DNA of 64,000 nucleotides. Source: Pempheris klunzingeri (taxonomy: Eukaryota > Chordata > Actinopteri > Acropomatiformes > Pempheridae). The notes beneath the pieces were generated by a model, which saw only the letters and a list, made by a program, of their open reading frames with translations, did not search any database and was not told the origin of the DNA. The position numbers and the translations under genes were made by a program. Positions 2,914 to 62,200 of this stretch are shown here, one piece after another; position 1 is the stretch's first letter; the number at the start of each line of letters is the position of its first letter. The stretch covers positions 5,553,874 through 5,617,873 of the forward strand of contig NC_092014.1 of assembly GCF_042242105.1 (NCBI RefSeq), given 5' to 3'.

Positions 2914-3505
2914 TATTATGGAGGCTTATTGATTCTGTTCACACTTGACAGCTATTGTATCCTGGAAGTCCAACTTGTAATTTAATTAATTGAATGTCTA
3001 ACTTAATTAATTATTAAGTCTGACTCAAGTCCGAGTGTGGAGCCTTAAGCCTGCAGCTCTGCAGATACCGAGTAACAGGACTGACAGAGTGATGAAAATG
3101 TCCAGTCTCACCAGTCAGGTGAGCTGTCACAATAAAACAAGTGTTAATTAAAGCCATGCAGCCTTCACCACCACTGCACTGCCTGGTGTGGTGGTTAGTG
3201 GCCTCTCTGCAGGGCTGCACTGTGGCTCCTCTGGTCCCTGAACTCCACAGCTCCTGCTCCTGTTTTTCCTGCAGACCCACGAAGCTGAAGTTTGCTCCCT
3301 TTCACAAAAGAACCTTTAGCAGAAACCTTCCTCGCAGCAGCAATGTAAAACAGACTCCTTTTACCCTGCACAGGAAAAGGTTGTAAATCAGCCAGGACAC
3401 AGACTGCACCAACTGATCCGTTCAGGCGTGGGTTTAAAAAATCGGACACTACAAAATCCTCTCAGTTCTCGAAGCATTGTCCAGTCTTGTGGTGTCGGTA
3501 CTCAC

Positions 3506-3648
3506 ATGAGATCGGGTCTGTGTTTGTGGATGAGGGCGCAGAAAGCCAGGCCGTCCCTGAAGGACGTGGTCATGTTGGTGATGCTCACATCCCGGTAGCC
3601 CTCACACTGGACCCGGCACCACTGCTGCAGCGCCTTCACGGCCGACAT
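3506..3648 (-). CDS. micall2: MICAL-like protein 2, first coding exon (partial gene)
   Basis: This exon encodes the first 47 residues plus two bases of codon 48, beginning [20 protein letters not shown]. It is the N-terminal half of a calponin-homology domain, with the family-typical stretches [19 protein letters not shown] and HRPDL. MICAL-like 2 proteins act as Rab8/Rab13 effectors that link membrane traffic to actin and cell junctions (family knowledge). The start codon is the first ATG that opens directly into the CH domain. The exon ends at a GT donor (CTCAT then GTGAGT on the minus strand), and codon 48 would complete as Ile, as in relatives. The rest of the gene lies beyond the left edge. 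MICALL1 is less likely because its N-terminus differs (recalled), but a teleost a/b paralogue assignment is not possible here. Confidence 0.88.
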
Positions 3649-3790
3649 CCCGGAGCTCCGAGCCGCACTGATCCGTGTGTGAGTGCTGCAGCGCCGCTGT
3701 GGGCTCCCAGGGCTCCTCTCCCTCCTCCAACAAACTTCAGAAAGTTTCCACAGAAGCCTGGACGAGCTGGATCCAGGAAATGACAGCCCG

Positions 3791-3797
3791 AGAGAGA

Positions 3798-3862
<65 letters not shown>

Positions 3863-3873
3863 TGTGTGTGTGA
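3791..3873 (+). repeat. Compound microsatellite (GT)n(GA)n(GT)n
   Basis: A run of GT dinucleotides broken by TATATG is followed by about ten GA units and a second short GT run. It begins roughly 140 bp upstream of the micall2 start codon (minus strand), so it is probably in the 5' UTR or core promoter. Confidence 0.95.
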
Positions 3874-3951
3874 GGGAACCACCTTTTCCCGACTGAGAAA
3901 GTAGCTGTGACACCTGTGAAAGGTCGATACTGACGCGGCATGGGTGGAGCT

Positions 3952-3952
<1 letters not shown>

Positions 3953-4030
<78 letters not shown>
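3953..4030 (+). repeat. Microsatellite (GT)n, about 39 units
   Basis: An almost uninterrupted GT dinucleotide run lies about 300 bp upstream of the micall2 start codon. It is probably length-polymorphic. Confidence 0.97.
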
Positions 4031-4031
<1 letters not shown>

Positions 4032-7000
4032 CCTACATGCAGAGTCAAACATAAGATCACAAAGAAATCCAAATGACTCCACCAAAGAGTCTAAATAATA
4101 CTTTCTGTTATCTCCCTAAATGATAGCTGAGTTACCAGGAACAGACTATAATTCTTTAGGAAACACTCTGATTTTATTTCAGTTGTTAATTTCTTTTGGC
4201 ATATTTCATAAGAATAGAATAATTACTGACTCTGCGTCTTTTGTATGCAGTTATCTCCTGTAAACTCCCCCTCCTGGCATGTCCTCCACAACGCAGCTGG
4301 ATAAAAACAATTACCATGATATATTTAGGTTTTTCCTCTCTATTTGTTGTGTGATTACAGGAAACTGTAATATATATATATATACATATGTAAGGCTTAT
4401 GATTTGGAGCTATTTGAAACAGTGAAACCAGTTAACCAGGTGTGGTTGCTGCCTGTGTGAGTCAGCCTGTCCTGTCCTGTCTGTTGGGTGTGTTAAAGGA
4501 GGCGGGTGGTGTGTGTCCACTGAGTTACCTGACACCTGCACACATGCTCTGTTCATAATGCAGCAGGCCGACAGCAGACACAGGCGTTATTCTGCTCATT
4601 CAGACTTGTGAATACCTGTGTACTCCACTGCAGTGTGTTTCTGATCCTCTTTATTTACCTGTTTGTTGGCAGAATGTGCAGATTTCAATGAAACTGGGAG
4701 GAAAGTTTGGCCATGGAGGAAAAAACAGGTTATACTGACTGGTGCTGTTAGCGCCACCATGTGACCATTCATAAAACCCCACAAACATCCATCACCTCCG
4801 ACACTCATGTTGATTCTTTTTTAAACCTATTTCTCCGTCATGCATCCTTCAAGTTTTATCAAATTTTCACCAAATTCTGAACATATTTTGACATTTTCTT
4901 TAAAAAAAAGGTCTTTCATTTATTATCTGGATATTTGTATCACTTTTCCTATAATTTGCTGTTGGACTGTTGGACACAAATTGGCATCGCTCATGGAAAC
5001 ATTGTGCAATAGTTTGTAGCATTTGCCCGTAGGTGGCGCTATAGCAAAGTGACTCATTTAAACTGCCATAACTCAGTTCATATTAACAGGAGGTCAAAGG
5101 ACCAGATGTATGTGGAGGGGGGACTCGTGGTGGAGACGCCATGGAGGACTATCACCCAGATTTGCAGCTTTCCGCGTAACAACATTATGGAGATCATTTA
5201 CAGCGTTGTTTGGTGACCCAACATGACCAAAAAAAGTCAATCAGTGAGAGTCTGGTTCACTTTAAAATGTACCTCAGAGGTGGAAATCCACACCATGGAT
5301 GTATAAAGACAACTGGATGCAGCGTTGGCTGCGTTCATTCCTGTGAAAGTCGCTCAGTGAAGCTAAAAAAGTTTGACTTCCCAAGTGTAAAAGTATTCTG
5401 ATCTTCCGCAGCGTTGGGCAACGTCTCGGGCCTGCAGAGCCAGTTAGCCCTCCGCTAACTTGAATGGGGATAAAATGATTTAATTAAGCAGCTCCTCTAG
5501 ACTTTCCAAATGTTATCGGACTGAATGGATCAAATTCTTATTCATTTTCACAGGGGTTGTGACTCCAAAACATTTCTCTGCTGATTCACATGTGTATGTC
5601 TAAGGAAAAAACTCTTTATGGGCGCCATGGCATCACATGACGGACGCCATTGTTGTAATTACACAGTTTGGCCACTATATCAAGCTGCCTTTAAAGCCTG
5701 CCGCTCTTCCTGGGAATCTGATGCTCCCGGTGCTGCAGTGATGTAGAAGTGTAACCAGTACACTGTGACATCACCGCTGGGTTTCACTCCAAAATTTAAA
5801 TGTAATTTATAAACTTATAAAAACCTCTAAAATATCTGTACTGGATTCCATTATTTATCAAAAGGTATCTGCCGTCAGATAACCATAACTTTCCATCACT
5901 GTGTGTCTTCATGCAGTTTTGAATTTAGATGCATACTGAAAGTTTTGCTTTGTGCAATTAAACTGGTAAAAATGTAGTTTTTTCTAGCTTAACATGATTA
6001 AGCATGATCCTTTGCATGAACCTCATCTTCTTGCTACTGCAGTGTTTTTAATCTCACATACATTTTGAACCATAACTTTCCTCTCTGTCAGAGGTCAAAC
6101 TAGTTTTTTTTCTGTACTTATACGGACAAACGACTGTCACTTCCTTCACCGTCAGATGTTGTTCATCAGCTAGATCCTAAAGTTTTGGCCTGAGCAGTTA
6201 AATGGACACCACCAATGATGAACTAAAGCTTCAGAGCTTCAAGCTTCTGTCAGCTGTGGGAATTTTACTGGACTTTCTGTAATGAGATCACGATTAAGAC
6301 TTAATGTTTACAAAGAAAACACACAGACATACCCTGTGTGAGCATGATGTCACCAGCAGAGAACAAAAAGAAGAAGCAAAAAGAAAGGAAAAGTAGAGGT
6401 CATTCGATAACTGGGTCACTACTTGGCTGGTTGTTATGTCTCCATCACTTTGATGAAAACCAGATTCATATGACTGAATGTGTGGAGGCCAATGTATGGA
6501 GTAGTTAAGTAGAAACATTAATCCCATATTCACATTTTATACATTTCAGTCACTACAATTTTTAAATTATAGTGAAACTGAAACTGAAATCAATTTCAGT
6601 GTTTCAGAACTGGTCCCTTTGTTTCAATATCAGTTGCATAGATTGTAATGAGATTTGGTTCATTCATGATAAATTTAGTGATCATTTATCCCGTAGCAAC
6701 ACAATCAGATCAAATGGCTTTTTAATTTGTCCAGTAGGGGTGTAGTTTCTGTTCTGTTTGTGTCTCAGGCCACAACTTTGTTTAAAAAAAGACACCCAGA
6801 CAGAAACAATAGAACAATGAAGCTGCTGTTAGATTTTTTTTATGGGCCCCAAGACACTCTACACAAAAGCCATCTGTCAAAAATGATTCAAATCAAATTG
6901 AAGATATTTCATTTTGCAACATGTAACAGATTTTTTTTGTTTGTTTGTTGTGTGAAGTATATAGTAAAGATTTCAGTGTAAAATATTCTATATAAATAGA

Positions 7001-9893: not shown

Positions 9894-20127
<10,234 letters not shown>

Positions 20128-30577: not shown

Positions 30578-32682
30578 TTATTGATCATTTACCACTAACA
30601 CCCGCTGTTTCGGTCTCCCCAGCGGTTTCGTTTGAGGTTTTGGCTTCTTGTCGTGAATCTTCATATGTTTTCGATAACCTTGGGAGTAAGGGAAGCTCTT
30701 GCCACATTTCTCACACGTATACGGTTTCTCTCCGGTGTGAACTCGCAGATGAACTCTCAGAACTCCTGCTCTGGAGTAACTTTTACCACAGATTGAGCAG
30801 AGGTGAGGGCGCTCTCCGGTGTGAGTCTTCATGTGCAACTTGAGGTGGGAGGATTGTGAAAACGCCCTCCCGCACTGATCGCAGTGGAAATTCTTTTCGG
30901 TGCTGTGTGTCAACTCGTGTTTTTTGAGAAAATGTGCAGTGATAAAACTCTTTCCACACTCTGAACAGGGAAAACGTGAATCTCCTGAGTGAACGCGCTT
31001 ATGTAATTTCATATAATATTCATGTTTGAAGGTCTTGCCACAGTCAGGACATGCGTACGGCTTTTTGTGACTATGGCGGTGTTCCTCCAGCTGTTGTTTC
31101 TGAGGGAAGTCCATGCCACACTCTTCACACACATGAAATGTTACAGCAGACTCTTTAGGGGGACGCTCCTCTTGCACTAATGTCCAATTTTGTAACTCTC
31201 CTGTGAGAAAAACAAAAGACATTTATAGTCATTTTCAGACAGTTCTGCATTGTTAAAACAATGACATTTTGCTGAAAAATCTATTCATATTTAAGGAGGA
31301 AATCTTCTGATGTAGGTAGCTCAGACTCGGAGGAAAAGCCCGCTGGAGACCATGATATTTTACACAATAATATTTATTTATATTCAGCCAAGGAGAATAG
31401 AGAGAGCTGCAAAAAATATGAGCACTGCCTGTTTCCATCTCACTCAGATCAGGTTATATGAACATCCAGGTTACCGTTAGCATGTTTCTCCAACATGAGA
31501 CAGTCTATCCTGCAATATCTGGAGCAAAGCACAGCTATCACCTGCGGCCTTAGTAACCCTGACAGTAGAGAGTCACTCCCTATCTGGAGGGCGTCAGCCA
31601 GACCGCTAGACTAGGCCCCAAAGACAGAAACAGGCCTTTCCAACTTCAGATCACAGTCTGGTCTGAGGGTGACCCCCCTGATCCAGGGAAACTCACGTGA
31701 CCAGATTCCAAAAATTCCTTCACAATATCAATGGGATCACTGCAATCAGTGGATTTCACTTGCATGGGCGAAGTAAGCCTTCACTGCTGTGAAGAGTTTG
31801 GACTGAGACATGGTTGTCTGAACATCATGAGAAAGGAGCTGACAGTAGAAATGCCAATCCACATGGATGAATTTCATTGTGCCACATTTTGAGCGGGCCT
31901 TTAGAGCATAGCCTACACAAGTTCCACCATATCAATCAACCATCATTTCTACAAGATCACATCTGCTTAACATAACTAATCAGAGAAAAAGAAAAAAGAG
32001 ACAAAAACAATCAAGCTACATGTTATTGAGGTCATACAGCCAGTTGAGAAGTGACAAAAACATGACCATCGAATTAAAGACAAAGCTTCTTGTTGCCTCT
32101 GACCTTTGTGAACTTTCATGTGTGTTTTCAGGTTTCCACCCTGGGTGAATCCTCTGCCACATATGAAGCACTTGAAGGGTCTTTTCCCCGAGTGAATCAC
32201 AAGGTGTCGTCTCAAGCCGGCGTTGTGAGGGAACGCTCTTCCGCAGGTCGGACAGTCGTGGCTCTTCTTGTACCTGCGAGGCCCCTCAGACAGCTTTTCC
32301 TCATGCTGTTCAGGTGAGCTGCTGCTTTCAGGTTCAGGTTCTCTTAAAGTTTCTTCTACAAAGAAAAAAAAAAAAAAGCACAAGGTGTGTTAGACATTTT
32401 TCTGAAATGTTGCAGGTATCTTTCCTGATGGCATGTAGATCCATAAGAAACTAATTAGAGATGTTGGTATAAAGCTCAGAGAGCCTTTTCTACATCAGAA
32501 AACTGAAAATGGTACAATGTGAACAACATAAAGGACCAAATCTGCAATAGTTGTATGTGTTCATAAAAAACATGAAAACAGTCGGACTCACCTGTAGGTG
32601 CTGCTCTGTGATCCTGGTCCTGTGCTTCAGGTCTGCGGTCGTCATGGTGATTTACCTCTGCACTCTTCTCGCTCTGGTGCAT
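30578..32682 (-). CDS. C2H2 zinc-finger gene A (321 aa, eight fingers)
   Basis: Three coding exons (minus strand): 32592-32682, 32104-32355 and 30578-31200, in frame throughout. Exon 1 starts [15 protein letters not shown] and is a Gln/Asp/His-rich segment without a known domain. Exon 2 has an acidic Ser-rich spacer and two fingers (CPTCGRAF and CFICGRGF). Exon 3 has six more, beginning CEECGMDF and ending CEKCGKSF. The tail is Lys/Pro-rich with LGRPKQ, which resembles an AT-hook core. Every finger has intact C2H2 ligands. The protein is inferred to be a nuclear DNA-binding protein; its target is unknown. Gene B is a tandem duplicate with the same exon phases and the same 91- and 623-nt outer coding exons. 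Upstream noncoding exons are likely, with a candidate acceptor GATCACAG near 32800. Confidence 0.85.
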
Positions 32683-33287
32683 CTTCTTTGCTGTGGTGTT
32701 ATATGGGAGGGTTGAGGTGAGCCTGAGCTCAGAGGGTGGAGATACAGAGGAAGTCCCAGAGAGCCAGAGCAGCTCTCTTTACAGCGCTCCTGATCCTGTG
32801 ATCATGACAGGGTATGAACCATCATCATGAGTGTACTGACAGGGTTTAACCGTAGCTAAACACTATAATTTCACGACTCAGGTGAAGCTATGGAATCAGA
32901 AAAGACAACAGCTCTTCCAAAAAGTATCAACATGACCCTGTTAGGTTGTCAAATAATAATAACATTATCGAAAATAACTGATCTGGCAAGAACGACAAAA
33001 CGTGAGCAGCTACATTATACCGACGTTAGTAAACCAGCATTAGAAAGACGTGACTCAGGTTGTCTATGCTGGACTTTATGTTAACGTTACTACCTCCACC
33101 ACCAATACGGAGCTCCACGTCCACATCCAGAGCCCCGACACCCCTCCGGAGACAAACCGCGATCAATAGTAATCACATTCCTCCAATACGAAACGAAAGA
33201 GAGACTCTCTGCGTGGCTCGGAGTAAAAACGAGTGTTTTAGTGTTGATGTTCGTTGACCAGCAGCGGTCCTGTGGTGCAGACGGACT

Positions 33288-34389: not shown

Positions 34390-34840
34390 AAAATCAGCCG
34401 TGCCAGACTCTGTCTCTGTGCATCTGAAGCACTGTGCTGTCTCACAAACACCTCACTGGAAGCTTGCCACAGACCTCAACCATTATCCCCATCCCCAAAA
34501 AACTAAGGACCACAGGACTGACTACAGAGACGTCACCCTGACCTTTGTGGCGATGAAATCATTTGAGCATCTTGTCCATGGCCTTGTGCGTCACTGTCCA
34601 CACCTGGACTCGGCAGGAACTTACGCAAGGACCCTATTTATGGACTTCAGCTCTGCCGTCAATACGATCATCCCGGCCCCTCTGCAGGACAAGCTCTCCG
34701 AGCTGAGTGTGCCAGATTCCACCTGCAGGTGTATCACAGACTTCCTGTCTGACAGGAGGCAGCACGTGATGCTGCGGAAGCACATCTCTGACTGCCGGAC
34801 TCTTGGCTCTGTTTCACCAATTACAGGTCTTTCAGGTAAA
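34390..34840 (+). mobile_element. Degraded L2-like LINE reverse-transcriptase fragment
   Basis: The conceptual translation shows non-LTR reverse-transcriptase blocks in order: DYRDVTLTFVAMKSFEHLV, then TLFMDFSSAVNTIIP, then LQDKLSELSVPDSTCRCITD and FLSDRRQHV. The block that normally lies between the first two is missing, and homology ends abruptly at about 34830. It is an inactive fragment. L2/Maui-like is my assignment from the motif wording; another fish non-LTR clade is possible. Confidence 0.8.
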
Positions 34841-35950
34841 GAGCGTTGCCACTGGCTGTTCTGCAAACACAAATACACGTGCACATCCTTTCAGATGCTG
34901 GTGAAATCCATAATCAATACCGGAAAGTTGTACAGAAAAAGTTTCTATTCCAACATTGGCAATTGCAAAGCCACCCAAACAAAGGACAGACTTATCAAAC
35001 AGGGAGTCCAAAAGAGACCATAACTATTAAAGGCAGATTCTGCAACATTGGAGCAACGAGCAAGAGTAGCTGGATTTTTAAGGCACCCAAAGGAAAATGT
35101 CCCACCTCCTCCCTTCAGGCCTTCCACAAAAGTCACTTCCCCATGAAACAGCACAAGAGAGTCAGTGCAGTAACTCAGAGGGTACGGTGGCCCTGAGGGC
35201 TCAACGCACTGCAACAACTGAAAACAACAATGGTGTCTCTTAGTTTTCCAGTCTAATAAAGAAACAACTCTGTTAAATGCCACAATTAAACAAACAAGCA
35301 AAACAGCCATCACAAGCATAATGTTTACCCAGTTCATAACAACTGCTGTGTTTTTTTTATTCCCATTTGAATTATTTATTATTTAAAAGACAACTGTGCA
35401 ACTGGAGGTGTCCTGTCAACAGTTTTTAGGAGGTCTCTGTTACGGTGGTTGCCTTTGGAGAAAATGTTTTTCAAGCAGCAGCTGAACTTTTGTTGCAAAA
35501 CTGTTAGTGGCCATTAGGAATAATTTGAAGCAAGGCTGAGCAGCAGCCGGCTTTATTCCCCCATTGTTGTTCTTATAATACATATGGAAAGCAGGTCATG
35601 AGTGGTTATGTTGAATATTGGTAATAGTTTAGGCTTCTGCTAATCATAGCCAAAGGCTTTTCAGTTCACAAATACTGATAAGAGCAACTGATTTAAATAA
35701 GAAAGTATATAATAATCAAAAGACATTTTTTAAAAAAGGATAGGTCTTGTAAAAGTATGAGAGAAGGAATTATTTCTAGGGGGTTAAGCAGTTTTACGTG
35801 GACATACCTACAGGTGTATCATGCCCTCAACTGGCTCAAGCAAATGGCTCAGGAATAAACCTCATCTGGGCGACTGCTAACTGAGACACTGTACCAGATA
35901 AGATACTGAGCAGTTATGAATGAACAAATGGATGATGTATGTTTAAAGAC

Positions 35951-37553: not shown

Positions 37554-39372
37554 TTATTGATTATTTACCACCAACACCTGCTGTTTTGGTCTCCCCAGCG
37601 GTTTTGTTTGAGGTTTTGGCTTCTTGTTGTGAATCTTCAGGTGTGCGTGATAATTTTGAGAGTAAGAGAAGCTCTTGCCACACTTCTCGCACGTATACGG
37701 TTTCTCTCCGGTATGAACTCGTAGGTGAATTTTCAGAACTCCTGCTCTGGAGTAACTTTTACCACAGATTGAGCAGAGGTGAGGGCGCTCTCCGGTGTGA
37801 GTCCTGACGTGCAACTTGAGGTAGGAAGATCGTGAAAAAGCCCTTCCGCACTGATCACAGTGGAAATTCTTCTCTCCGCTGTGTGTCAGCTCGTGTTTTT
37901 TAAGAAAGTCTGCCGTAAGAAAACTCTTTCCGCACTCTGAACAGACGAAAGGTGAATCTCCTGAGTGGGCGCGCTTATGTAACTTAAAAAAATATTCTTG
38001 TTTGAATGTCATACCACAGTGAGGACACACGTACGGCTTTTTGTGCCTCTGGCGGTGTTCCTCCAGCTGTTGTTTCTCAGGGAAGTCCATGCCACACTCT
38101 TCACACACATGAACTGTTACACGAGACTCTTTAGGGGGACGCTTCTCTTGAACTAATGTCCAATTTCGTAACTCTCCTGTGAGAAAAGAAAGATATTTAT
38201 AGTCATTTATTTTCAGAAAGTTCTGCATTGCAGCGCAGCATTTTAAAAAATGACATTTGCTTAAACACCAAATTCTTATCAAAGGAGTTTAGGGTGCTAA
38301 ATAATGTCACACTGTAAACAGAAAGCTTCAAATAGACCCCATGAGAAGGCCCCAAAAATCCTGATTGGACCACCCATAATCAGTGCAATCAGTGGATTTC
38401 ACTTGTGAGGGAAAAGTAAACCTGCACTGCTGTCAGAGAATAGACTGAAAAATGGCTGTTATGAGAAAGGAGCTGATGGTAAAAAACATTTTGACCAGGC
38501 CTTTAGAGCATAGCCTACACAAGTTCCACCATATTAAATCTATATAGACACACACACAAACACAAAAACAACACTTCATAGCACAACAAGACAAAGCTTC
38601 TTGTTGCCTCTGACCTTTGTGAACTTTCATGTGTGTTTTCAGGTTTCCACCCTGGGTGAATCCTCTTCCACATATAAAGCACTTGAAGGGTCTTTTCCCC
38701 GAGTGAATCACAAGGTGTCGTTTCAGAGCATGGCTGCGAGAGAACGCTCTTCCACAGGTCGGACAGTCGTGGTTCTTCTTGTACCTGCGAGACCCCTCGT
38801 GTTGTTTTGGCTCCTCAGACGGCTTTCCCGCGTGCTGTTCAGGTGAGCTGCTGCTTTCACGTTCGGGTTCGCTTAAAGTTTCTTCTACAAAAGAAAGAAA
38901 AAAATCACAAGATTGTGTACATACAGTAACATCCTCCTCTCCCTTCTAATAAAACTGCAATAAAAATGCATGTACTTTGAATTTATTCCACAATATTGTC
39001 TCTTCATTTGCTCTCTCTTAAACATATATAAGATTTAAGAGTAAAAAAACAATGCTGATGCTTTTGCATGTATATTTCCTGGTGGACAGTAAATCCCTTA
39101 GAAACTAAATAGAGATGTTGGTTTTAAGCTTAAAGAGCCTTAAAGAGCCTTCCATCATGCAAACCTCACTGTGCTGCAGTTTGAACAACATAAAAAAAGT
39201 CTTTAATATTTTGCTTAAAAATCTGTAAGAGTTGTTTGCATCCAGGAAAAAAAAACATGACATCAGTCCAGTCGGACTCACCTGCAGGTGCTGCTCTGTG
39301 ATCCTGGTCCTGTTCTTCAGGTCTGTGGTCGTCATGGTGATTTACCTCTGCACTCTTCTCGCTCTGGTGCAT
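37554..39372 (-). CDS. C2H2 zinc-finger gene B (327 aa, eight fingers), tandem duplicate of A
   Basis: Three coding exons (minus strand): 39282-39372, 38615-38884 and 37554-38176, in frame for 327 codons plus stop. Exon 1 starts [15 protein letters not shown] as in gene A. Exon 2 is 18 nt longer than in A, with extra spacer residues ([11 protein letters not shown]) before the two fingers. Exon 3 is the same length as in A, with six fingers and the LGRPKQ tail. All zinc ligands are intact and both introns have the same phases as in A. The finger frameworks are almost the same as in A, but the DNA-contact positions differ in seven of eight fingers. It is inferred to be a nuclear DNA-binding protein with a target different from that of A. 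A hAT element sits just beyond the stop codon. Confidence 0.85.
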
Positions 39373-39775
39373 CTTCTTTGCTGTGGTGTTATGTGGGAGG
39401 GTTGAGGTACAGAGGAAGACCCAGAGGGCCAGGAGGGCTGCTGCTCCGCCGGACAGCTCTCCTGTAAACGAGGAAGACACGACGGAGAACGGCTCACCTA
39501 CACAGCTACAAGATGGTTGTCCAAAGTTTTCCACCTAACAACAACAGGTGAGCTTGTTATTGGAAAAAACAGCGGAGGCGGAGACAAGACTTTACAGGGG
39601 GAGGGGGGGGAACCCATCTGGAGACCCGGGAGACAAACTGCGGCCAATAATAATCACATTCCTCCGCCACAAAACGAGAGATGAAACTCTCTGTAAGGCC
39701 TGGAGAAAAAAACAAGTGTTTTTAAACGGGACATCAATATACGTTGACCCACAGCGGCAGGACAGGAGAGTAGTC

Positions 39776-45758: not shown

Positions 45759-48700
45759 TTAGATGTCCAGCCTGGCCTCTTGCTTCGGTCTACCGAGCTG
45801 CCTGGTCGGCCCGATGCGTCTTCCAGCATGTGTGCGCTGATGCTGCCGCAGACCCTGGCGGTAAATGAAGCTCTTCCCACATTCCCCACACTCGTAGGGT
45901 CTCTCTCCGGTGTGAAGCCTGTGGTGCACCTTCAGTTCCTCAGCTCTGGAGTAGCCTTTCCCACAAACACTACAAATGAAAGGCCTGTCTTTGATGTGGG
46001 TCTGGTAATGTGCTGTTAGGTACGAGTTTATCCGAAACGTCTTCCCACAGATGGCGCATGCGAACGGCCTCTCCCCAGAGTGCTGCATCTCGTGCAGCTT
46101 GAGAGAGGAAGCCGTGTGGAAACCTCTGCCGCACTGGGAGCAGAGGAATGGTTTCTCCCCGGTATGGATGCGCTGGTGAACTTGTATGTAGCTTTCATTG
46201 ATGAACTTCTTCCCACAGTCGGGGCAGGAGTAGGGCTTCGCTTTGATGTGGCTTTTCATATGTTCTTCCAGCTTTTCTTTTTCATTGAACTGAATGCCAC
46301 AGCGGCGGCAGAAGAACAGCTGTGATGCGCTGTGCTCGGCTGTGTCTGATTCACCAGCTGTCTGCGTGTGTGTAGTAACGTGGTGTGCTTGTAAAGCTGA
46401 CTGACTCTCACATTCTTTTCCACATTCAAGGCAACGGAGGGACGATCTGATCCTGGACTCCCCCGGCAGAGACTTCAAGTATTCAGACAGTTCTGTCGCA
46501 ATGGGATTCACCTCATCGTCAAAATCCACAGCACCTTTACGACCTTCGCAGAGACAAAGGAAAGACGGATCATATTTTACTCTTACAGCAATCTCTACAC
46601 GGTTTAGAAGTTCAGAAGAAGAGGGTGCAACAAGAGGACAACGTTAAAAGAACGAAAGGTGAAAAACAAAAACAATGTAGAAAACTATGTAGAAAAATTA
46701 AATATTTTTTTAGTTTCATGTATTAGTTTGCAGAAGGTTACTGCCTCCTCCTGAACCTGAACTGTCAGTCAAAATGAATAAGATTCCACAGCCAGTGGTG
46801 TTACTGTTACCTAGCCTTCGTGAGAGACTTTAAAAATGTTTAGCTCTACCCAATCATACACTAACCTTACTAAATGTGTCTTTCAGTTGTGTGTTTTCCT
46901 TGCCCGCCAAAGTGGCGGATGGCCTGATGATTTACCGACACTTGGTGGGTGATGGATGAGAATTCCAGAACTGGTATAGAAATATACACAGACAACAACA
47001 GAACAGTGTAATTATAAATGATTTAGTGTAATCCAGTCTCACCTAAGTGGACTTTGTAGTGCGTTTTGAGATTTCCTTTTTGGTTGAAACCCCGACCACA
47101 GATGGAGCAGCAGTAAGGTTTCTCTCCTGTGTGAATCAGCTCGTGCCGCTCCAGCTTGTAGGCATGAGGGAATTCTTTGCCACACACTGAGCAGTGGTAC
47201 TCTATCTTCTCTTTGGGCTTTTTCAGGAGCTCGGGAGGTATTTCGATCGGAATACGAACCATCTTTCTGCCAGGGCGTTTCTTCCCTGTGTGGAGGGGAA
47301 AGAAGATGAAATGACAAGGTTAGGCTGTTCATTTAATGCTTACAAAGTGTTCTTGTAGAATCTTAATCCACACAAATACCAACCAGATTCTGTGTTGATG
47401 GGCTTAATTTGTTTGTTGCAATAACTCTTGTCAACTTGCTCAATCCTTAATTAAAAGCAGATAAGAAGTATTGTTTGTGTTTTGATGAGCTTAACTGCCA
47501 TGTTGAGCAAGAATCTGTTTGTCTGTTCACAGTCAGTCATACTAGTTCTACACATACCAGCCTTTGTGACGTACAGCAAATTAGAATAATAGCAGCAGCA
47601 GCAGTTTACACCTGCAGGTGTTGATGTCGCTACCTGCAGGCAAAAGCAGTAATAGCTGCTGCTCTTCCACACAGCACCACCTATAGGCAGAGTGTGTTAC
47701 AGCTGCTGTTTATTCTCTTTCATAGCAGTTGTCTTTGTGTGTACATGCAAGCTTTGAGGTTTGACATTAAAAAAGAAGGGTACATTTTTGAAATGTATTA
47801 AATGCGATAGATAGCATATAATTCTTCTTTTTGGAAACATCTAAAAGCTCTTTCAAGCTCTTTTCTGTCCCGTAGATGGTACACATCGGCATGACTACAT
47901 CTTAAATGCTGCTGATGATATTTTTGCTGATAGGTGAAATAACTTTTTCTTCCCAAGGAAGAAAAGTTTGTGATGGTAATAAGCAAATGAAGCCTTTTGC
48001 AGTGTTTTGAGATTAGAATACAATGAGAACACAACATCTTGTTTTGATAAACAAATAAGTTTCAATTTATTTACATATATTTCATACATTGAATTACATA
48101 ATACTGGGTAGCTTATGGATTTCCTGCTGGGGACCAATAAAGCCATCTGTGCAGAGTGGCAGAAATGCGAAGTAGCATAAAATAGAAATACTCAAGTAAA
48201 GCACAAGTACCTCAGATTTGTACTGAAGTACAGTAGGTGCATAAATGTACTTTGTTAGTACTTGTTTGTAGCACCATGAGGATAGCTAATGCAAGCTAGT
48301 TTAACTAGTATTACATGTCAGGAAGGTGGCTTTACACAGCCGCTGTTCTGTGAGGGAGTGGTGGCACTTTATTTAGTCAAGCTGCAGGTAGCCAAACACA
48401 GGGCAACCCCGTGCATGTCATGGTCAATCATTACTGTGTAATTCACTTCAGACGGAGCAAATAAAAACTCTTCAGATCAACATGATACACACCAATGGCC
48501 TGGTTGACACTAAAAATGGTGAAAGGGGAGGAGTTTGCAGGTATCCACCATTCTAAACGACTGGTTAACTTGGTGTTGTGAAACTGAAGTAACTCTGGGA
48601 TACTTTTAGTTGCTCTTACCAGCAGAAACACTTGTGTTTTCTCCTTCTCCTTCAGCAGATGGTTTGGTATCTTTTCTTCTTCGGTTAGATCGCTTTGCTG

Positions 48701-50904
48701 GTAAAAGAAAAAAAAAAAAGTAGTTTTACTGACTGTGCCAACAAAGAAAACTGAAACCCTAAAAATATCCACATCTGTATGTATGTATTTTTCTTTTCTT
48801 GTTCAAATAATGTGAAATAAATCAGAATCAATGAGCAGAATCAGACTAAATTTAAACAATTCCCAAACCTTCTTTGTGAACCTGATTTTTTTCTCCTCTT
48901 ACCAGCAGCACGGCGGGCAGGTTTTGAGTTTACTTCCTCTGCTTCCACTATGGTAGGGAAATTTCTCTTTCTTCGGGTACGTCTGGATACTATATAAGAG
49001 AAAACATTTGAGTTATAATAAGAAAACAATAACAAGCAAACTCAGCATTTCAGATGCTTAAACAAGAGGAACACTCACTTCCTGGCTCTGCTTCCAAGTC
49101 TTCACTAGACCTCACTGGAGTTTCTGAAATCTTTCTTCTGCCCCTTCTTTTTGCTTTGTGACAGAGAAAACAGCAGAACATATTACCATATGGTTATATG
49201 ATGCTAAATACTGAGGTATCAGGTTTAAATAAAACATGTCACACAACTCTTATTATGACATATTATAACTGAATCCTCCACATCTACAGAAACAAACACT
49301 GTGAATGTGCATCATGATGAAAATGTTCTCCATCACTTCACTCACCAGAATTTGCAGGAACTTCTTTCTCTGCGTCCGACACCACTGTTATTGGAATCTT
49401 CTTCTTTCTTCTCGGCCTCTTTCCTGGTAACAATGTGAGCAAAAAGCCAACCTCAGAGCCGAGTCAACACTATTATCGACAACCTGTACAGCTTTCATGT
49501 TTCCTTTGGCTTGTGTTTACCACGATATAAGGGCGGGACAGCTGCCATCTTTACTACTCTGTCTTTCTCCTCCGCCTCTTCCCTTTCTTCATCTTCCCCC
49601 ACAGACACAACTTCCATGATGAGTGTTGGACTACTGCTGTCTCTCTGGTTTTGGCTTTGCAGCTGAGACTCAGACAGGACGACACCCTGTGATCATTCAA
49701 ATCATTAAAACCATCAGAGACATACCCCCCAAAGCCTCGCTGGGTAACAAGACTTAAACCAACTAACAGAGCAGAGATAAATGCACTTATATAGCCATAG
49801 CTATATGATGTAATCCAAACTGTTGAACTGTTCTGTGGCAGTAAAGTCTTTTACTTTTCTGTGTGGAGTAGGAGGCAGCAAAGGATAGTGTGGTGCTGCA
49901 CTTCCAACTGCAGGAAGCTAGTAACTGATAATTAGAAATGCTGCCTATTTGCTGTATCTTCCCTGCACTGAGGCTGAAACTCCCTCCTCAAAAGTTTTGG
50001 TTCACTATGGTATTTTGATGTTGGACTTTCAGTATGTCAAGACTTAGACAGCTGTTAGGTGTAAAGATGTCAACCCAGCTTCATCTCTAAACAAAGCGCC
50101 AATTTTAGCTGGCACTGGCTTCAGCCACATCAGACGAAAAGAAGATTTTGGGGGGCTTTAGAGACCCTCTGACAATTCATTTGACAGATGGATCATAATT
50201 CTAGTGTACAATTAAGAAAAAAAAAAACCAGGACAACTAGTTATTTTATGTGACATTTTCATGTAGTCGTTTCCACATTTCCACTTTGTCAAACTGGAAA
50301 AGCTGCTTTGCAAAATTCCTGTTGTTTTGTGGGGAACACACTGACTAAACTAAATATGTGGTGCTGTTAAACTGTACTATATGCAACATAATTATATTCT
50401 GTTTATGCGATCGGAAGTTTCAAGCGGACAACCTTTGTCTGTGCCTTTGTTTAGCAAAAATCCTAAATTATGTTTTAAAACAAATTACCTTGCTAGGCTG
50501 AGGACTTTCTGTGCAATCAGAGCCTCGGTCAGGACTCTCTCCTGCAAACAGAAGACAGGTGGCTCAGGCTCACAGACACCTGACATGACAACAGTGCTTT
50601 GTAGTTTAGGCATTCAGGCCTAACATTCAGGCTGCGTTGTAGAATTAAAAATAAACTCTAAGCGGCGAAAGGGAGACAGAAACGAGAGACAGTAAACAAA
50701 TGTGTACTGCTTACATCAGTCCTGGCTTTGCTGTAAACATGCAGCTATGGATCACTTACTGTCATCCCATTCAACCACTTCTCCATCAGAGTTGATTAAA
50801 CCACCGATTTCTTCATCTTGTTCCTCCTGTTGTTCCTCTTCCTCCCCCGCCTGCAGTCTAACAGTCAAATGGAGCGTTTGGTCCTCTAGGTTTGCAGATG
50901 CCAT
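45759..50904 (-). CDS. C2H2 zinc-finger gene D with repeated basic AT-hook-like module exons (569 aa)
   Basis: Nine coding exons (minus strand): 50760-50904, 50489-50541, 49521-49686, 49346-49423, 49079-49153, 48903-48989, 48620-48697, 47043-47285 and 45759-46543. All phases agree and give 569 codons plus stop. Exon 1 carries [11 protein letters not shown], as in gene E. Exon 3 is acidic ([13 protein letters not shown]). Exons 4-7 are 78, 75, 87 and 78 nt, all phase 1-1, and each starts with a basic cluster: [23 protein letters not shown] and KRSNRRRK. Exon 8 starts KKRPGRK and adds two fingers. Exon 9 has seven fingers and ends with LGRPKQ. The basic clusters resemble AT-hooks or nuclear localisation signals. 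It is inferred to be a nuclear DNA-binding protein with extra minor-groove or nonspecific contacts. I do not recognise a named orthologue. Confidence 0.82.
48105..48150 (+). mobile_element. Short LINE-tail-like remnant
   Basis: GATTTCCTGCTGGGGACCAA followed by TAAAG resembles the 3' terminus of fish L2-like LINEs. Only the tail is visible, in an intron of gene D. Confidence 0.4.
48184..48262 (-). repeat. Teleost repeat fragment, same family as 10163-10535
   Basis: AATACTCAAGTAAAGCACAA, GTACCTCAGATTTGTACTGA and AAATGTACTTTGTTAGTAC are the reverse of the start of the AAGTAACTAAGTAC family. It lies in the gene D intron between exons 7 and 8. Confidence 0.65.
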
Positions 50905-52305
50905 CTTTAGTCCATGTGACATCAGGGGCTTACATTCAGGAGAAACCTAAAAACAGATTACGGCGTGAAAAAAGGCATTTGTTTTCTTTATCTTTCGAGG
51001 GACTTTACTCACAAAGTGGATCTGATGAGAAGTAGACACCAGATTTGGACTTTACTCTCATTTTGCTGGAATGCATTGTGACAAAAAAACACCCATGTAA
51101 TCCCATTTTGTTGGATATTTAAACTAAAGTCACTGGGCCGCATGCAAGAACATTATTTATCATATTCTCATCCTAAACCTCTCCTTTTTTTTTTTTTAAA
51201 CCGAGGCTCATTCCAGCACCGATCCACCAAACACTTGTCAATCTCGTTGTAAATCGCTCTTTTTCATCGTGATAAATGTCAACTGTTCATGAGGAGGCGC
51301 ACGTTTGTGAGATGTGATCATTATCATAATCTACGCCCATAACACTACGCCATGTGAGGCACCTGTTCCGCTCCATTTGTGACACGTTTCTGACGGAGCT
51401 GTCAAAATCACCATAAACAAAACCATAACACATTCAGTCAGTCAGTCAGTCAGTCGTGGTATTAGAGGATCACTTTGTTGTTTAGAATATTTTTTTAAAA
51501 CAATCAGAAAACGCCAACAACATGTCATCAGTGCAGCGCCGTACTGTGGCGGATATGAGGAGGGTGCTAAAAAGTGTTACCGGGCACAGTAAAATGCACA
51601 AAGAAGAAAAACAGAAAACGTCCGACACACTGATCGTCCTTGTGCTTTGTCTGTGTGCCATATTAGGACATCTATGTCTATCAGACGTCACCAGGTCAAA
51701 AAAAACAAAAAAAAAAGTTGGAAACTTATTTGCTCACAGCTTTACATACATTTATGTGATTATTAGAAACTTTGGCCAGTTTAATATGAACAACATTGTA
51801 AGATTATGTATGGAAAAGCACAATAGACGCCCTTTAAGTGGCAGTAAAGGGGACGTGACAGTGGGAGAATATTTCAGCCTACAGTAGATGATGTTACACT
51901 GTCGCTGCACCAGAGGAGGGTACAAGACAAAGACCTGCATAAAGAGCCCGAGGCAGCTGACAGAATTTTCCCAGCAACTACTTTCTGAACGTGACTGGTA
52001 CGACAGGACGGGAACGCGCGAGATTTTCATGGAAATTGGTTGAAGCCATAAATTCTCATTGAGCCAAATCATTAAACGTTGAACATTGGCACTAAAGAAT
52101 CTGTTCAAACAAATGGTTCTTGTATGAGGCCCACAGCGACATTATTTGAATCCATTCATAATCAATAAATAAATAAAATCATCGAAAACACTTGAGTATT
52201 TAAATACCAGTCCTTGAGCTGATAGTGACCATATGAAACCACTGCTAGATGACAAAACAAGCAATTAAAAGAAAGATTTTTCTTTGCTTATTATTGACGA
52301 TTCCA
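50905..52305. other. Gene D 5' flank and gene F 3' flank
   Basis: No coding exon was recognised. A minus-strand acceptor (CTGTTTTTAG) at about 50947 suggests that gene D coding exon 1 is preceded by a noncoding exon upstream. A five-unit CAGT run lies at 51436-51455. Other open frames here have no recognisable similarity. Confidence 0.4.
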
Positions 52306-55300
52306 TCATGTTATATAATGAATTTCTACAAAAGTCTTTTTACGTACTGTTTGGCAAGGTGCTGATCTTTTGGTCTCACGCAGTTCTGCTTCTGCTGGCA
52401 AAGATGTGCTTTGTTTTACGTCAAGGCTCTGGTCTTGAGCGTAACACTCATCCCCTGCATGTGTTCTCTGATGGGATTTCATGTTCCTTTTGTGACCGGG
52501 GGTCGTCTCACAAACTGCGTTATTGCACTGATGCACAGTCACATTTTCCGGTGCTCTTCCACGTATACAGGAAATCTTAGGTTTCTCATCAGAATCCGCG
52601 AGCGCAGGCTTCTGCCGCCCCTCTCTGGCAGAGGAGCTCTGCTCATAGAGAGCGGGGCCATCAGACTCCTCGCAGCACTTCTCCACCGAATACACTGTCT
52701 GGTGTCTTTTTACTCCACATGATATGGAGCTCTCCTTCCCGCATGTTCTGAGGTGGGGATGATAAGTGCATGTATCCTCTTTTTCTCCCTCAGTGCTGAA
52801 GCTCTCATCTGTGTCTAACATAACAAGGCAAAATAAAGACGTGCAAAATCACGATCGAGCAACTGTGTGTAAGCCATTCATTAAAGTGATGCTGATATTT
52901 AAGAGTTCGCACTCACGATTTTCACTCACAGTCCAGCCGTCCTCTTCCTCTTTGATGATAACTTGAATCTCTGGTGTCTCACAGTTGTACTCAGGGCTCG
53001 CTGGTGCTTTTTTTGAATCATGTGGCGAACTTTGGTCATCATAGTTTTCATTTAGACTCAGTGACAACGGATCTTGGAGTTCAGGATCCTATTAAGAAAT
53101 AAAGACAAAGACGACAAACCTCAGAAACCAAATTTAGAGCGGCCACCATTAATGGAAACATGTTTTATCTGGCTGAAATAATTCTAAAAACATGCTTTCT
53201 ACATTCTGTACATACAAAAAAAATAAACCCAGTGGTTCCTTATAGCTGAATACATTGACATCTTCAGGCTGGACGGGTAATGCCACATTCATGACAGCAG
53301 AGCAATAATCAGCAGATAATAATACCACTGTTACAGCCTGGGTGCGTTCATATGCTGTTCCCAAATTGTGACCTCCAGTGAACTCCTGCACGCCATCAGC
53401 AATGTGTTGCATTAAATTCAAAATACAAAGCAAAAACAGCTGTGCAGCAACAGGATGTGATAGACAATCTAACAAACAGTGGACGTTTGCTTCGATATTT
53501 TCTATTTCCAGGCCTCTAGGATGTGAACAGGCCTTGCTTGTCTCATTTTATTGATATATTTTATGAGGTGTTGTGTAATTGTCTGAGCTGTGTGTGATTT
53601 GACTGTTTTTGTATGGTGGCCTGCCAAAGCTCTTGTTAGTTTTTTCCATAAACTTAATGCAATGTGTACAGCGTGCAGGAGTCCACTAGTTTGTTTTACA
53701 CCATTTCAATGTTAAAACACACATTTTTTGTTGTTGTATCACATATTTCAAACTGTTTGAAGCAGATATAAACAAACTGTATTGGCTTTAAATATTACAT
53801 TTGTTAAGATCTGATCTCATTCATATTGATCAACAGATCAGACGACGATGGTTTGCAGCTATTTTGGCAACAATTTCTTGACAAGGTGAGAGTTGTTGTT
53901 GCCATCAGAAAGTCCCTCTCCTCTCTTGCTTCTAACTTTTAGTTTCCTACTTTGTAATTAAATCTAGGTCTCCCATGTAAACAGTATTTCCAACATGGCT
54001 GCTCATGTTTGCTCAGTTTGTCTGGTAAAACATGGCAGCCAAAACAAATAAAACAAACAAAACAGTATTTTACCCCATTTATTCTCCTCATTAGCAGCCA
54101 CTGATATCTGTTCATTTATTCGCAGTCATTTGCAACTTGCTTGAGATAGAAAATTCATCACATTGAATATCAATGCAATATGAACGTGTGATAATGACGC
54201 TGTAAGAGCAGGACGATCTGAAAAGTCTGCGCTTCAGTGCAACACAGCAGACAAATGTGACTTGATAAAAAAATAGGAGCTGACATGACTCGACCTTGAC
54301 GGATTACTTAATGAATGCAAATTTCAAAATCGCTCCGAGTTGTTTTTCGGTTCATCTGCTGAAGGTTGATCCAGAAAAATCAAAGCACTGTGTAAAGAAA
54401 TAAGGGTATTAGGGGTTATTTATACACTTTGAGGCACATCCAGTTTATTAAGTTAACCTACTTAAAATTGATTCAACATTTTTGCCACTGCTGTAGTGAG
54501 AGGTGTCATTACAAAAACAAATGTGCTCACTTGTTCATTGTGATATTGATGTATATATAATTTCCATGTGATTAATTTCTCATTATTACAAGATCTCAGT
54601 TTTTACCAAAAAAAACCCTGCCTTTCTTGTAATAACAATATATCTCTAATTTCATTCTTACTCATTATTGGTCCGTTGGTATATTGTTGCAACAAGAAAC
54701 TTAAGTGTTTTTCGCTATTTTCTAACATTTTACCGACAATATGCAACAATGATTCATTCAAGTGAGAAATAAATGGCAGAAAAATCAATAATGATCCATT
54801 AGATACAGCCCTTTTGAGGGAAACTTTCACATAACCAGCAATCAGAAAGTTTGACTTCCTTGAAAATCATCAGTCATCAGTTTTTGTTCTTAAAAACAAT
54901 TTATAATACTGTTTTATATCTCAGTATTTATGGTTGTAGTCACCTCATATTGCAACGTACCTGTGTAGCACATCTACCTGAGTGATGTATAAAGATATAC
55001 AGTGTATTCCATATATAGTTGAATCTATTTCAATGTATGCAAACTCAATTTTGGTGCACATTACACAATATTACCTGCTTGCACCAACTCACAGAACATT
55101 ACTGTGGAACTATCTTTATAAAGTGCATATCCAATACAAGTTTTTCTATTTAATGTGTATAATCTAAGTCTTAGAGTGCTGTTTTCTTACCAACCTCATG
55201 GGTGTCCTCTATCAATCAGTCTATCTAAAGTCAATATTTGCTATGCTTACATTTAGAAAATGTGTGATAAAGCCAAAACACGACAGTTTTCTGCAGTCCT

Positions 55301-58925: not shown

Positions 58926-59286
58926 ATACATGTTAGTTTAATAGGTAGAAAACACAATTGTTAATTACATTCCTAAACTGCATTACCTAGCAGATTTAGA
59001 CCATAATGAAAACTCAGTGTTCATTGTGATGGATTAACGTATTATCATATTGCATAGAAATGAATAAAACCCAATGCATTCCTCCAAAAATACATAAAAA
59101 ATAATTAAATAGAAAAGCATAGTTTATAAAATGTAGTTGTGGTGTAAATATACAATATGTGAATTATACTAAATAGGACAAAAATAGTGGTATGGTTCTT
59201 TAAATTGCAAGTCAGTAAACTTGTGTCTTGGTCCCCACTTAGTTCTTCTTTTCAAATCTTGTTTCTCCTCCTCTTCAGATTTGCAT

Positions 59287-62200
59287 ATGTTGCACCAGAT
59301 GGAGTGGGATTCATCAGATGAAGGTCTGGGAGGATCAATGGAAGACCCTCCTCACTTATCTGAATATCCTCAGTCGAAGTCCACCACCACCACCAACATA
59401 TTGGAGCACGAATTCTCGTGTCACTGTTGCTATGACATCTTTGTGAACCCCACCACCTTGACCTGCGGCCATAACTTTTGTCGTCACTGTCTGGCTCTGT
59501 GGTGGGAATCCTCTCACAAGAATGAGTGCCCAGAGTGCCGGGAGAAGTGGGAAGGTTTTCCTAAAATCAACATCCTGCTGAGGTATGCTTTTCACAGCCA
59601 GATCATATCAGGGAATGTATGTTTGATTTTCTGACCACAGAATTCACCTTTCTCTGACATACAGTAGAGAACAGAGACCTACTGACGACCTCCAAATAGG
59701 TTTCTGTGAGTGAGACAGCAGGTTCAAACACACCTCCATGATGCTGGGACTGGGTATCATTTGAAACTCTGCAATACTAATAGATTTTTTAATAATAATA
59801 ATTTAATTTTATAATAACTTTAATTTTAACTTTCATACATTAAATGCAGCACAACATGCTTTACAACAAAGTTAAAAACATGCGCTAAGTGTGAACCAAA
59901 TAAACATAAAAATAAAATAACATAATTTGAAAAATGAAATTCAGATGTTAGAGGAACCTGTGCAGGGCACACTAACGTGCTGTCTCTCCATTTGGCTCTG
60001 GTTTGTAGCTGAGCTGCTGAGTGTTGAGTTTTTTTTTTCACCAGGAGGCCAGTAAAATGTGCACTAATGTAATCAAGTCAGCTTGAAGTGAAGGTATGAA
60101 TTATGTTGCACCTTTTTCATTTATAAATGGTTGCACTTTAGCTATGTTTCTCAGGTGAAAAAAATGATACCTGGGTGCTCGTACCAATTCAAAAACAGTG
60201 CCTTACTTTGGGGAATATAAACCTGCTTTTCTGTAAAACTCTTTTTAATGTAATAAAAGAAATCCTAAATGTTGCCTAAACACAAGCAACCATAACAGAG
60301 CTCTGCCTAAATAAACACACAGTTTTATAATTCGCAAAACATGATTCTTGTATAATCCAGATTTATGACTAGTATTGCAGTCTTTGACTCCTCCATATCC
60401 AGACAAGCTCTCATTACTATGCTGACTGAGTTGCCCCAGCAGTTGAGGATTAATGGTTTGATTCCTGGCTGGTAGGACGCTGCTCGATTTACTTCTCTGC
60501 TGGTGTTAACTTCTCAGTCTAATGAATGATGAGCGTGACAGTACAGGGTACGCTGCACATTACCAGTGCCAGGCTTTCTCTTTCAGCATTTGGACTGTGA
60601 TTATATTGTTTTTGCTTTATATACTTGTCTTTTTGTCTAGTATTCCAAAACAATAGTTTTGTGAACAAATGGCACATATTAACAAATGTCTTTTGTTCAT
60701 TAGACAAGAGTTTAGTGAGTATAAGGAAGAAAAGAAACCTATGGATGTGTATACTCAGAATTATGGAGTTGAAACGCCACCCACCCTACTTCAATCAGTG
60801 AAACAGGAACATTTGTGTGAATGTCTTCATGTTGATTTCCTTGTGAGAGGAAGCAAGCTGATGATCAGACACTTGTACAGTATCACCAGAGAAATCATAA
60901 TCTGTCCTAGTTGACAAGAAATAGATCTGAATAAGGCTAAAAAGGTGTATAGCAGTGTGATATACAAGGAGTTAGGATTAGCTTTGTACACTTTTACCCC
61001 ATACAGCCAGTGCACGCAGTGTTTTAGACTGGGAGGGGAAAGACTTTATTAGGGTGTTTTCAGTAAGTTGCACCAAGGGGGGGGACATTTTCCAGATGGT
61101 TACAAGTTTCATGAAGCCGTTTTAAATCATAGATTGTATATAAAGATGGAGGACGTGTCTCCACGTCCTCTCACCGTACAAAAATTAAGCCAAAACATCT
61201 CAGATATGGTTGCCATCATATTGCACTGGTGATGTAATTTGGAGCCAGTGTCTGTCTGTGATGGTGATCAGCGTGATAGAAACCACCTAAAATAACAGAA
61301 AAACAAATTGGGGAAAAAATGTATTTGATGTGCACTTTGATTTTTTTTTTTTAGTTTGACCCTTGACCTGTACTGCAGCCAGCCACCAGGGATCAGTCCA
61401 GATGTTTTGGCTTCACTTTGGGGAACCGTCATGTCGTCTATCTTCATATACAGTCTATGTTTCAAACACAGCACAAAGCAGAAGGTTGACTGACACAATC
61501 TGATCAGCTTCGACATTACAGTGAGACCTGACATTGTGTCTGTGGTGACCAGAATAATAGAATAGAGGAGACAAGACAAAGGGCCAGAAAGAAGCTTCAT
61601 CAGAATTACCAGTTTCCTCAACATGACCACTTTCTCTCCTCAGACACAAGCTAGCACTAATCACCTTGAGCTATGTTGGTGGACGCTAAAGTAAAACTCA
61701 AGGAACATAGCAATACTTTCCCTCCTTTGTTTCTCTTGGTTTTATTTTTTATCTACTTTTTGCACTTGTTAACCAAATGCGCCTCTTTCTAGGGATGCAA
61801 CTGACAAGCTGTTCAGTGAGGTTGTTGAGAGGAGGAGAGACGAGATCCAGGCTAACCCCAAAGTCTCCCGCAGCTTGCTGGCCTTCCAGAGGTAGGACAG
61901 CAGTACAGTCCTCATGAGCTTGCCCTCTGTGTCTGATCTGTTCACTAGTCTTTGGTACTTTTTTGTGGTCTTAACCAACAGAGCTGGCATCCCTTAAATG
62001 TCTACATGTTTTTAGGTATGGTGACAACTTGGGTAGATCCAGGACAAACCAGCACAAAGGAGCAGGCTTCTTCTTTTCTGGAGTCCTAACTGCGCTCACG
62101 TTTGTGGCTGTAAGTACACAACTTTCTGATTCTCTTTATCCGCATCTAATTAGTACATTCTTACTTTGCAGTGGTACATTACTGTGTCACGTTGTAAAAA

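Follow-up and report, generated by a model that had tools for sequence, protein, structure and literature searches.

A C2H2 zinc-finger gene of the fish Pempheris klunzingeri, here called gene D, carries four very short exons ahead of its finger exons, each opening with a cluster of basic residues, and this mini-exon array is a real, non-random feature of that one gene. It is encoded on the minus strand, from 50922 to 45759 of the window, that is, of the whole 64,000-nt stretch of DNA that was analyzed (G000:C3:5553874-5617873, part of a genome whose 439 contigs total 645,938,514 bases). The reading that we favor, and that we hold to be about evenly poised between right and wrong, is that the array would form a polybasic segment for DNA contact and nuclear import, derived from an old exon duplication, with the basic heads doubling as splicing enhancers.

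Anatomy of gene D and its mini-exon array

Nine exons are predicted for gene D by a model built from the sequence alone (Table 1). Each of the eight predicted introns has GT-AG ends, and m1 to m4, the four mini-exons, all have an AG acceptor and a GT donor. The introns flanking the mini-exons measure 97, 192, 89, 205, and 1334 nt, and the junction phase is 1 throughout, starting at the intron before m1. When we re-read the sequence, the coordinates, lengths, and phase of the mini-exons were found to be those given in an earlier, sequence-only reading of this DNA, which had also described a fifth basic cluster, KKRPGRK, correctly placed at the opening of z1 (47285). The predicted product comprises 575 aa with all exons and 469 aa without the four mini-exons. 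That symmetric exons of this kind could be skipped without breaking the frame, as the same reading had proposed, is borne out by all 16 include/skip combinations of m1-m4, each of which is in frame and open to the same stop.

Table 1. Predicted exons of gene D, in transcript order (positions in the window).
Exon	Position	Strand	Features
e1	50760..50922	-	acidic, candidate start codon
e2	50489..50541	-	phase 1-0
e3	49521..49686	-	acidic, phase 0-1; weak splice scores
m1	49346..49423	-	mini-exon, 78 nt, phase 1-1, head KRPRRKKK
m2	49079..49153	-	mini-exon, 75 nt, phase 1-1, head KRRGRRK
m3	48903..48989	-	mini-exon, 87 nt, phase 1-1, head RRTRRKRN, tail net charge 0
m4	48620..48697	-	mini-exon, 78 nt, phase 1-1, head KRSNRRRK
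z1	47043..47285	-	243 nt, phase 1-1; fifth head KKRPGRK and two C2H2 fingers
z2	45759..46543	-	seven C2H2-pattern fingers and C-terminal LGRPKQ tail, up to stop codon

As a C2H2 zinc-finger gene, gene D encodes nine C2H2-pattern fingers. The two in z1 match PF00096 at 39.5 bits (cut-off 25.2), and the seven in z2 are matches to the C2H2 pattern, called by that pattern alone without a Pfam run. Ahead of them, each of the five heads has 5-7 K/R within its first ten residues, at a spacing of 26, 25, 29, and 26 residues as given by the exon lengths, and the head motif common to the mini-exons is K-R-x-x-R-R-K. Each module had been described as a basic cluster followed by an acidic tail; the basic heads are present in all four mini-exons, but the acidic tail is weak and confined to three of them, with net charges after residue 10 of -2, -4, 0, and -2 in m1 to m4 and a second basic patch, KPARR, at the end of m3. 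The part encoded before m1 (e1-e3) is strongly acidic, with a net charge of -21.

Both strands of the window were scanned strictly for candidate exons in phase 1-1, 45-129 nt long, that had scored splice sites and carried at least five K/R in the first nine residues, using hand-entered splice matrices and an acceptor cut of 2. Three places were returned, namely m1, m3, and m4, with m2 missing because its acceptor scores 1.6. The same scan returned no place in any of 20 second-order Markov sequences. A looser scan, in which no donor was required, found 10 minus-strand places; six of these had at least 11 pyrimidines in 17, and they comprised the four mini-exons, z1, and a place out of frame within e1. 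On the plus strand it gave eight places, one of them with such a tract. Taken together, the Markov sequences and the looser scan rule out a chance origin of the array.

A real array of candidate exons could nonetheless differ from what is expressed: the mini-exons may not all enter the mature mRNA, or gene D may be decaying, and the array would then be an artefact of calling exons on sequence only. The splice scores of e3 (acceptor -0.2, donor 0.5) and the weak m2 acceptor fit such an account, as does a neighboring finger-like frame (52306-53100) that looks decayed by eye. However, the four frames are open in a common phase with scored splice sites, the finger exons contain no stop, and the Markov sequences yielded nothing comparable, and we consider an artefact quite improbable, more so than any other alternative weighed here.

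Possible DNA contact and splicing signals in the basic heads

The modules had been called AT-hook-like, a description that fails in the strict sense. None of the five heads matches the Pfam AT_hook model (PF02178) singly, nor does the joined array, whereas a doubled AT-hook consensus included as a control does so at 19.3 bits (cut-off 17.4). Canonical AT-hooks are thus ruled out. The core of an AT-hook is described as GRP with flanking basic residues, and an RGR core as entering the minor groove (PMC11354804). GRP occurs in none of the five heads and RGR only in that of m2, and the z1 head has GRK. LGRPK does occur at the C-terminus of gene D, in a tail that gave no Pfam match. With no canonical hook, and with zinc fingers making up its C-terminal part, gene D falls outside the HMGA family, whose marks are three canonical hooks and a C-terminal tail that is acidic.

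A parallel is AT-hook 2 of MeCP2 (PKKRGRKP), reported to be a non-canonical hook that binds DNA with weaker AT-hook character, about 25-fold more protein being needed than for the HMG-I consensus (PMC5028900). Since the heads of gene D are likewise non-canonical and this hook is weak, weak or nonspecific DNA contact is the more likely role of the heads. Under the favored reading, the five polybasic clusters spaced evenly before the fingers, of which four lie in short symmetric exons, would most likely make nonspecific contacts with the phosphate backbone, and possibly weak minor-groove contacts, which would supplement the affinity that the fingers provide; the clusters would also serve nuclear import, and the segment that carries them is probably disordered.

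The coding of the heads might serve splicing as well. We counted five enhancer-like words (GAAGA, AGAAG, AAGAA, GAAAG, and AAAGA), picked after the exons had been seen, against a synonymous null of 1000 redraws in which codons were redrawn from the other exons, a small codon reference. The mini-exons together hold 37 such words vs. 13.3 ± 4.4 in the null, a count that 0 of the 1000 redraws reached; with a smaller codon reference the null was 11.1 ± 4.1. Enrichment was seen in m1 (17 vs. 5.8, 0 of 1000 redraws), m2 (9 vs. 2.4, p = 0.011), and m4 (7 vs. 2.2, p = 0.026), and none in m3 (4 vs. 2.6, p = 0.31). Among the controls, 11 exons or open finger frames, one was nominally enriched (Cz1, p = 0.017). 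The enrichment of three of the four mini-exons in purine-rich words suggests that part of the basic coding may be owed to splicing, and the purine-rich codons of the heads probably also act as splicing enhancers, which would help to define such short exons.

Taken further, this could suggest that the basic clusters arose chiefly as a side effect of purine-rich splicing enhancers and that the residues themselves have little function. Besides the word counts, overall and in m1, m2, and m4 individually, such a view could draw on the report that in mammals amino acid preferences close to exon ends go with purine-rich enhancer motifs (PMC2374712). However, m3 retains its head by way of CGT and CGA codons and is not enriched, the order of residues in the heads is conserved beyond composition (see next section), and the correlation is reported to be reversed for predicted zebrafish enhancers (PMC2374712). 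We consider it unlikely that such a side effect is the main explanation. The array in any case provides a clean test of what maintains basic repeats of this kind, their role in the protein or their role as splicing enhancers.

The word counts also bear on a proposal of the sequence-only reading, namely that alternative splicing could vary the number of AT-hook-like modules and so shift minor-groove or nonspecific affinity stepwise beside fixed fingers. This sits well with the 16 in-frame combinations, with the RGR core of the m2 head and the GRK of z1, and with the hooks of HMGA2, which are encoded in separate exons (PMC7353061). It is doubtful all the same, given that no head reaches PF02178 or contains GRP while the consensus control is recognized, that the described PATZ1 isoforms all retain their hook (PMC11354804), and that strong enhancer-like words would rather favor steady inclusion. 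Variable inclusion of m1-m4 is possible. Taken as a whole, the earlier interpretation stood in its exon layout, in-frame skipping, and head similarity, and fell on the strict AT-hook.

It is similarly improbable, in our judgment, that skippable duplicated exons in one or more teleost finger genes work as a dial that sets one to five polybasic modules beside fixed fingers. If they did, splicing would set chromatin affinity without altering sequence specificity, and alternative inclusion would provide a compact natural case in which auxiliary DNA affinity is shifted by equal increments beside an unchanged set of fingers. Even without alternative inclusion, gene D presents an HMGA2-like layout of one module per exon in a zinc-finger gene.

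Origin of the mini-exons

Aligned in register, the heads of m1-m4 score 121 against 70.3 ± 12.1 for composition-matched shuffles, and 181 against 96.7 ± 16.6 when the z1 head is added, neither score being reached by any of 2000 shuffles. The whole modules m1-m4 score 179 against 134.8 ± 12.3 for a null that preserves heads and tails (p = 0.001), and their tails taken alone show no similarity (91 vs. 89.2 ± 8.7, p = 0.40). Among the ten pairs formed by m1-m4 and z1, uncorrected p-values were at most 0.05 in six at the protein level and below 0.05 in four at the nucleotide level. At the nucleotide level z1 matched none of the mini-exons (p 0.34-0.85), so it is through the protein heads that its kinship with them is drawn; at the protein level it matched neither m3 nor m4. 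Intron similarity was absent in all ten pairs (p at least 0.25), and the lowest value in 16 pairs of flanking sequence was 0.05 (m3-m4, downstream).

Serial exon duplication, which had been put forward together with an alignment of the four exons and their flanking introns as its check, is upheld in part: the exons are similar in their heads beyond composition, and no similarity extends to the tails or introns. The lack of intron similarity leaves duplication plausible but old and unproven, and a recent duplication is unsupported. Phase is not an independent sign of duplication, because any exon kept within a phase-1 intron must be 1-1, and the symmetry carries little weight given that phase-1 introns also precede the finger exons of two other genes in the window, B and C. 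Most likely, as far as the alignments go, m1-m4 derive from a single exon that was tandemly duplicated long ago and of which the head, K-R-x-x-R-R-K, alone was kept. Alternatively, similar purine-rich coding may have been recruited repeatedly.

Distribution and comparison with known systems

A tblastn search with the module array (E ≤ 10) found it once in the 646 Mb genome, at its own five exons; one further place, with an E-value of 3.29 and 26% identity, was taken as chance. Of 1943 candidates for the z1 query in the same genome, the best 150 were scored and gave 215 matches. No close copy of z1 was among these scored candidates: the best non-self match reached 62% identity over query residues 27-79, and among the matches listed no other one aligned query residues 1-10. 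This search defined 30 loci, 29 of them other than gene D itself (four within the window). Within 1500 nt upstream, none of the 29 had a basic-start candidate in the phase of gene D, a span that cannot exclude mini-exons farther away, since m4 of gene D itself already lies 1334 nt before z1; four had a candidate in a different frame, and a single overlapping stretch of C16 accounts for three of them. One scan each of viral contigs and genome contigs gave no relative, as expected for a fish gene. A sequence search of the PDB returned 236 sequences, and among the 60 matches listed the best stretches fell at query residues 124-187, which correspond to the fingers plus the linker that immediately precedes them.

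The sister genes B and C resemble gene D in their minus-strand orientation, in the phase-1 introns before their finger exons, and in having a two-finger exon followed by a multi-finger exon that ends in LGRPKQ. The last exon of C is identical to that of D at 100 of 205 aligned residues and that of B at 99 of 205 (~49%), and B and C share 174 of 207 residues there. They differ from D in their N-terminus, and neither by eye nor in the looser scan of the window do they have mini-exons. Thus, the mini-exons were either acquired by D after it separated from B and C or lost from those two genes.

We met no description of a repeated series of basic exons combined with C2H2 fingers in the open-licence literature, which is weak evidence of absence. 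The earlier statement that no described protein has this design was too strong, because HMGA2, PATZ1, and ZFAT share parts of it. HMGA2 (HMGI-C), which is not known to have zinc fingers, resembles gene D in that basic DNA-binding modules lie in separate exons and an acidic element in another exon; it has three canonical hooks, whereas gene D has four or five non-canonical heads before nine C2H2-pattern fingers. The AT-hooks of HMGA2 are assigned to its first three exons and its acidic domain to exon 5 (PMC11291832); the HMGA family is described as disordered (PMC11354804), and a general description of its hooks is available (PMC6981681).

Other systems share single elements with gene D. AT-hook 2 of MeCP2 resembles the m2 head, both being non-canonical, but MeCP2 is a methyl-CpG-binding protein, not a zinc-finger protein, and the account drawn on here describes no exon series (PMC5028900). 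In the FiNZ family, which is reported to be restricted to cyprinids, a 28-residue domain is encoded in one exon before the finger exon, and gene D, with its many exons, is set apart by description from this two-exon layout (PMC10547256). PATZ1 and ZFAT are single proteins that each carry both an AT-hook and C2H2 fingers, and PATZ1 is described as having four spliced isoforms that all keep its single hook (PMC11354804). Both bring together a basic motif and C2H2 fingers, as gene D does, but with one AT-hook in place of a repeated array and, in PATZ1, with an additional BTB domain.

Finger genes and their LGRPKQ tails

Genes B and C, sister finger genes of the predicted C2H2 zinc-finger gene D, look like recent tandem duplicates, to judge from their last exons, in which 174 of 207 residues are identical, and from the similarity, judged by eye, of their first exons and flanks. 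All three genes share a C-terminal LGRPKQ, placed 3' of the final finger and containing a GRP core; the tails of D and C, the two that were run, had no Pfam match.

Features in and around the finger cluster
Feature	Position	Strand	Source
Genes B and C	30578-32700 and 37554-39400	minus	window sequence
LGRPKQ tails of D, B and C	45759-45830 (D), 37554-37620 and 30578-30650	minus	window sequence
Small basic start G-RK-G, phase 1	46543-46519	minus	opening of gene D last exon
Additional zinc-finger-like frame	52306-53100	minus	upstream of gene D
Open frame	34391-35023	plus	translation of window
Open frame	18705-19340	minus	
Open frame	3502-4032	minus	
Open frame	59188-59634	plus	

Possible remnants at and near gene D

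The very short G-RK-G opening reads as if it were a sixth, worn head, that is, one of the polybasic clusters that open the gene D mini-exons and its first finger exon. The additional frame combines an acidic IIKEEEDGW stretch with degenerate fingers (CNNAVCETTPGHKRNMKSHQRTH) and may be a decayed gene.

Other open frames

The plus-strand frame at 34391 looks like a piece of retrotransposon reverse transcriptase. Three others flank the finger cluster, and we take their translations to resemble a trefoil/alpha-glucosidase (18705-19340), a MICAL-like CH domain (3502-4032) and a RING protein (59188-59634).
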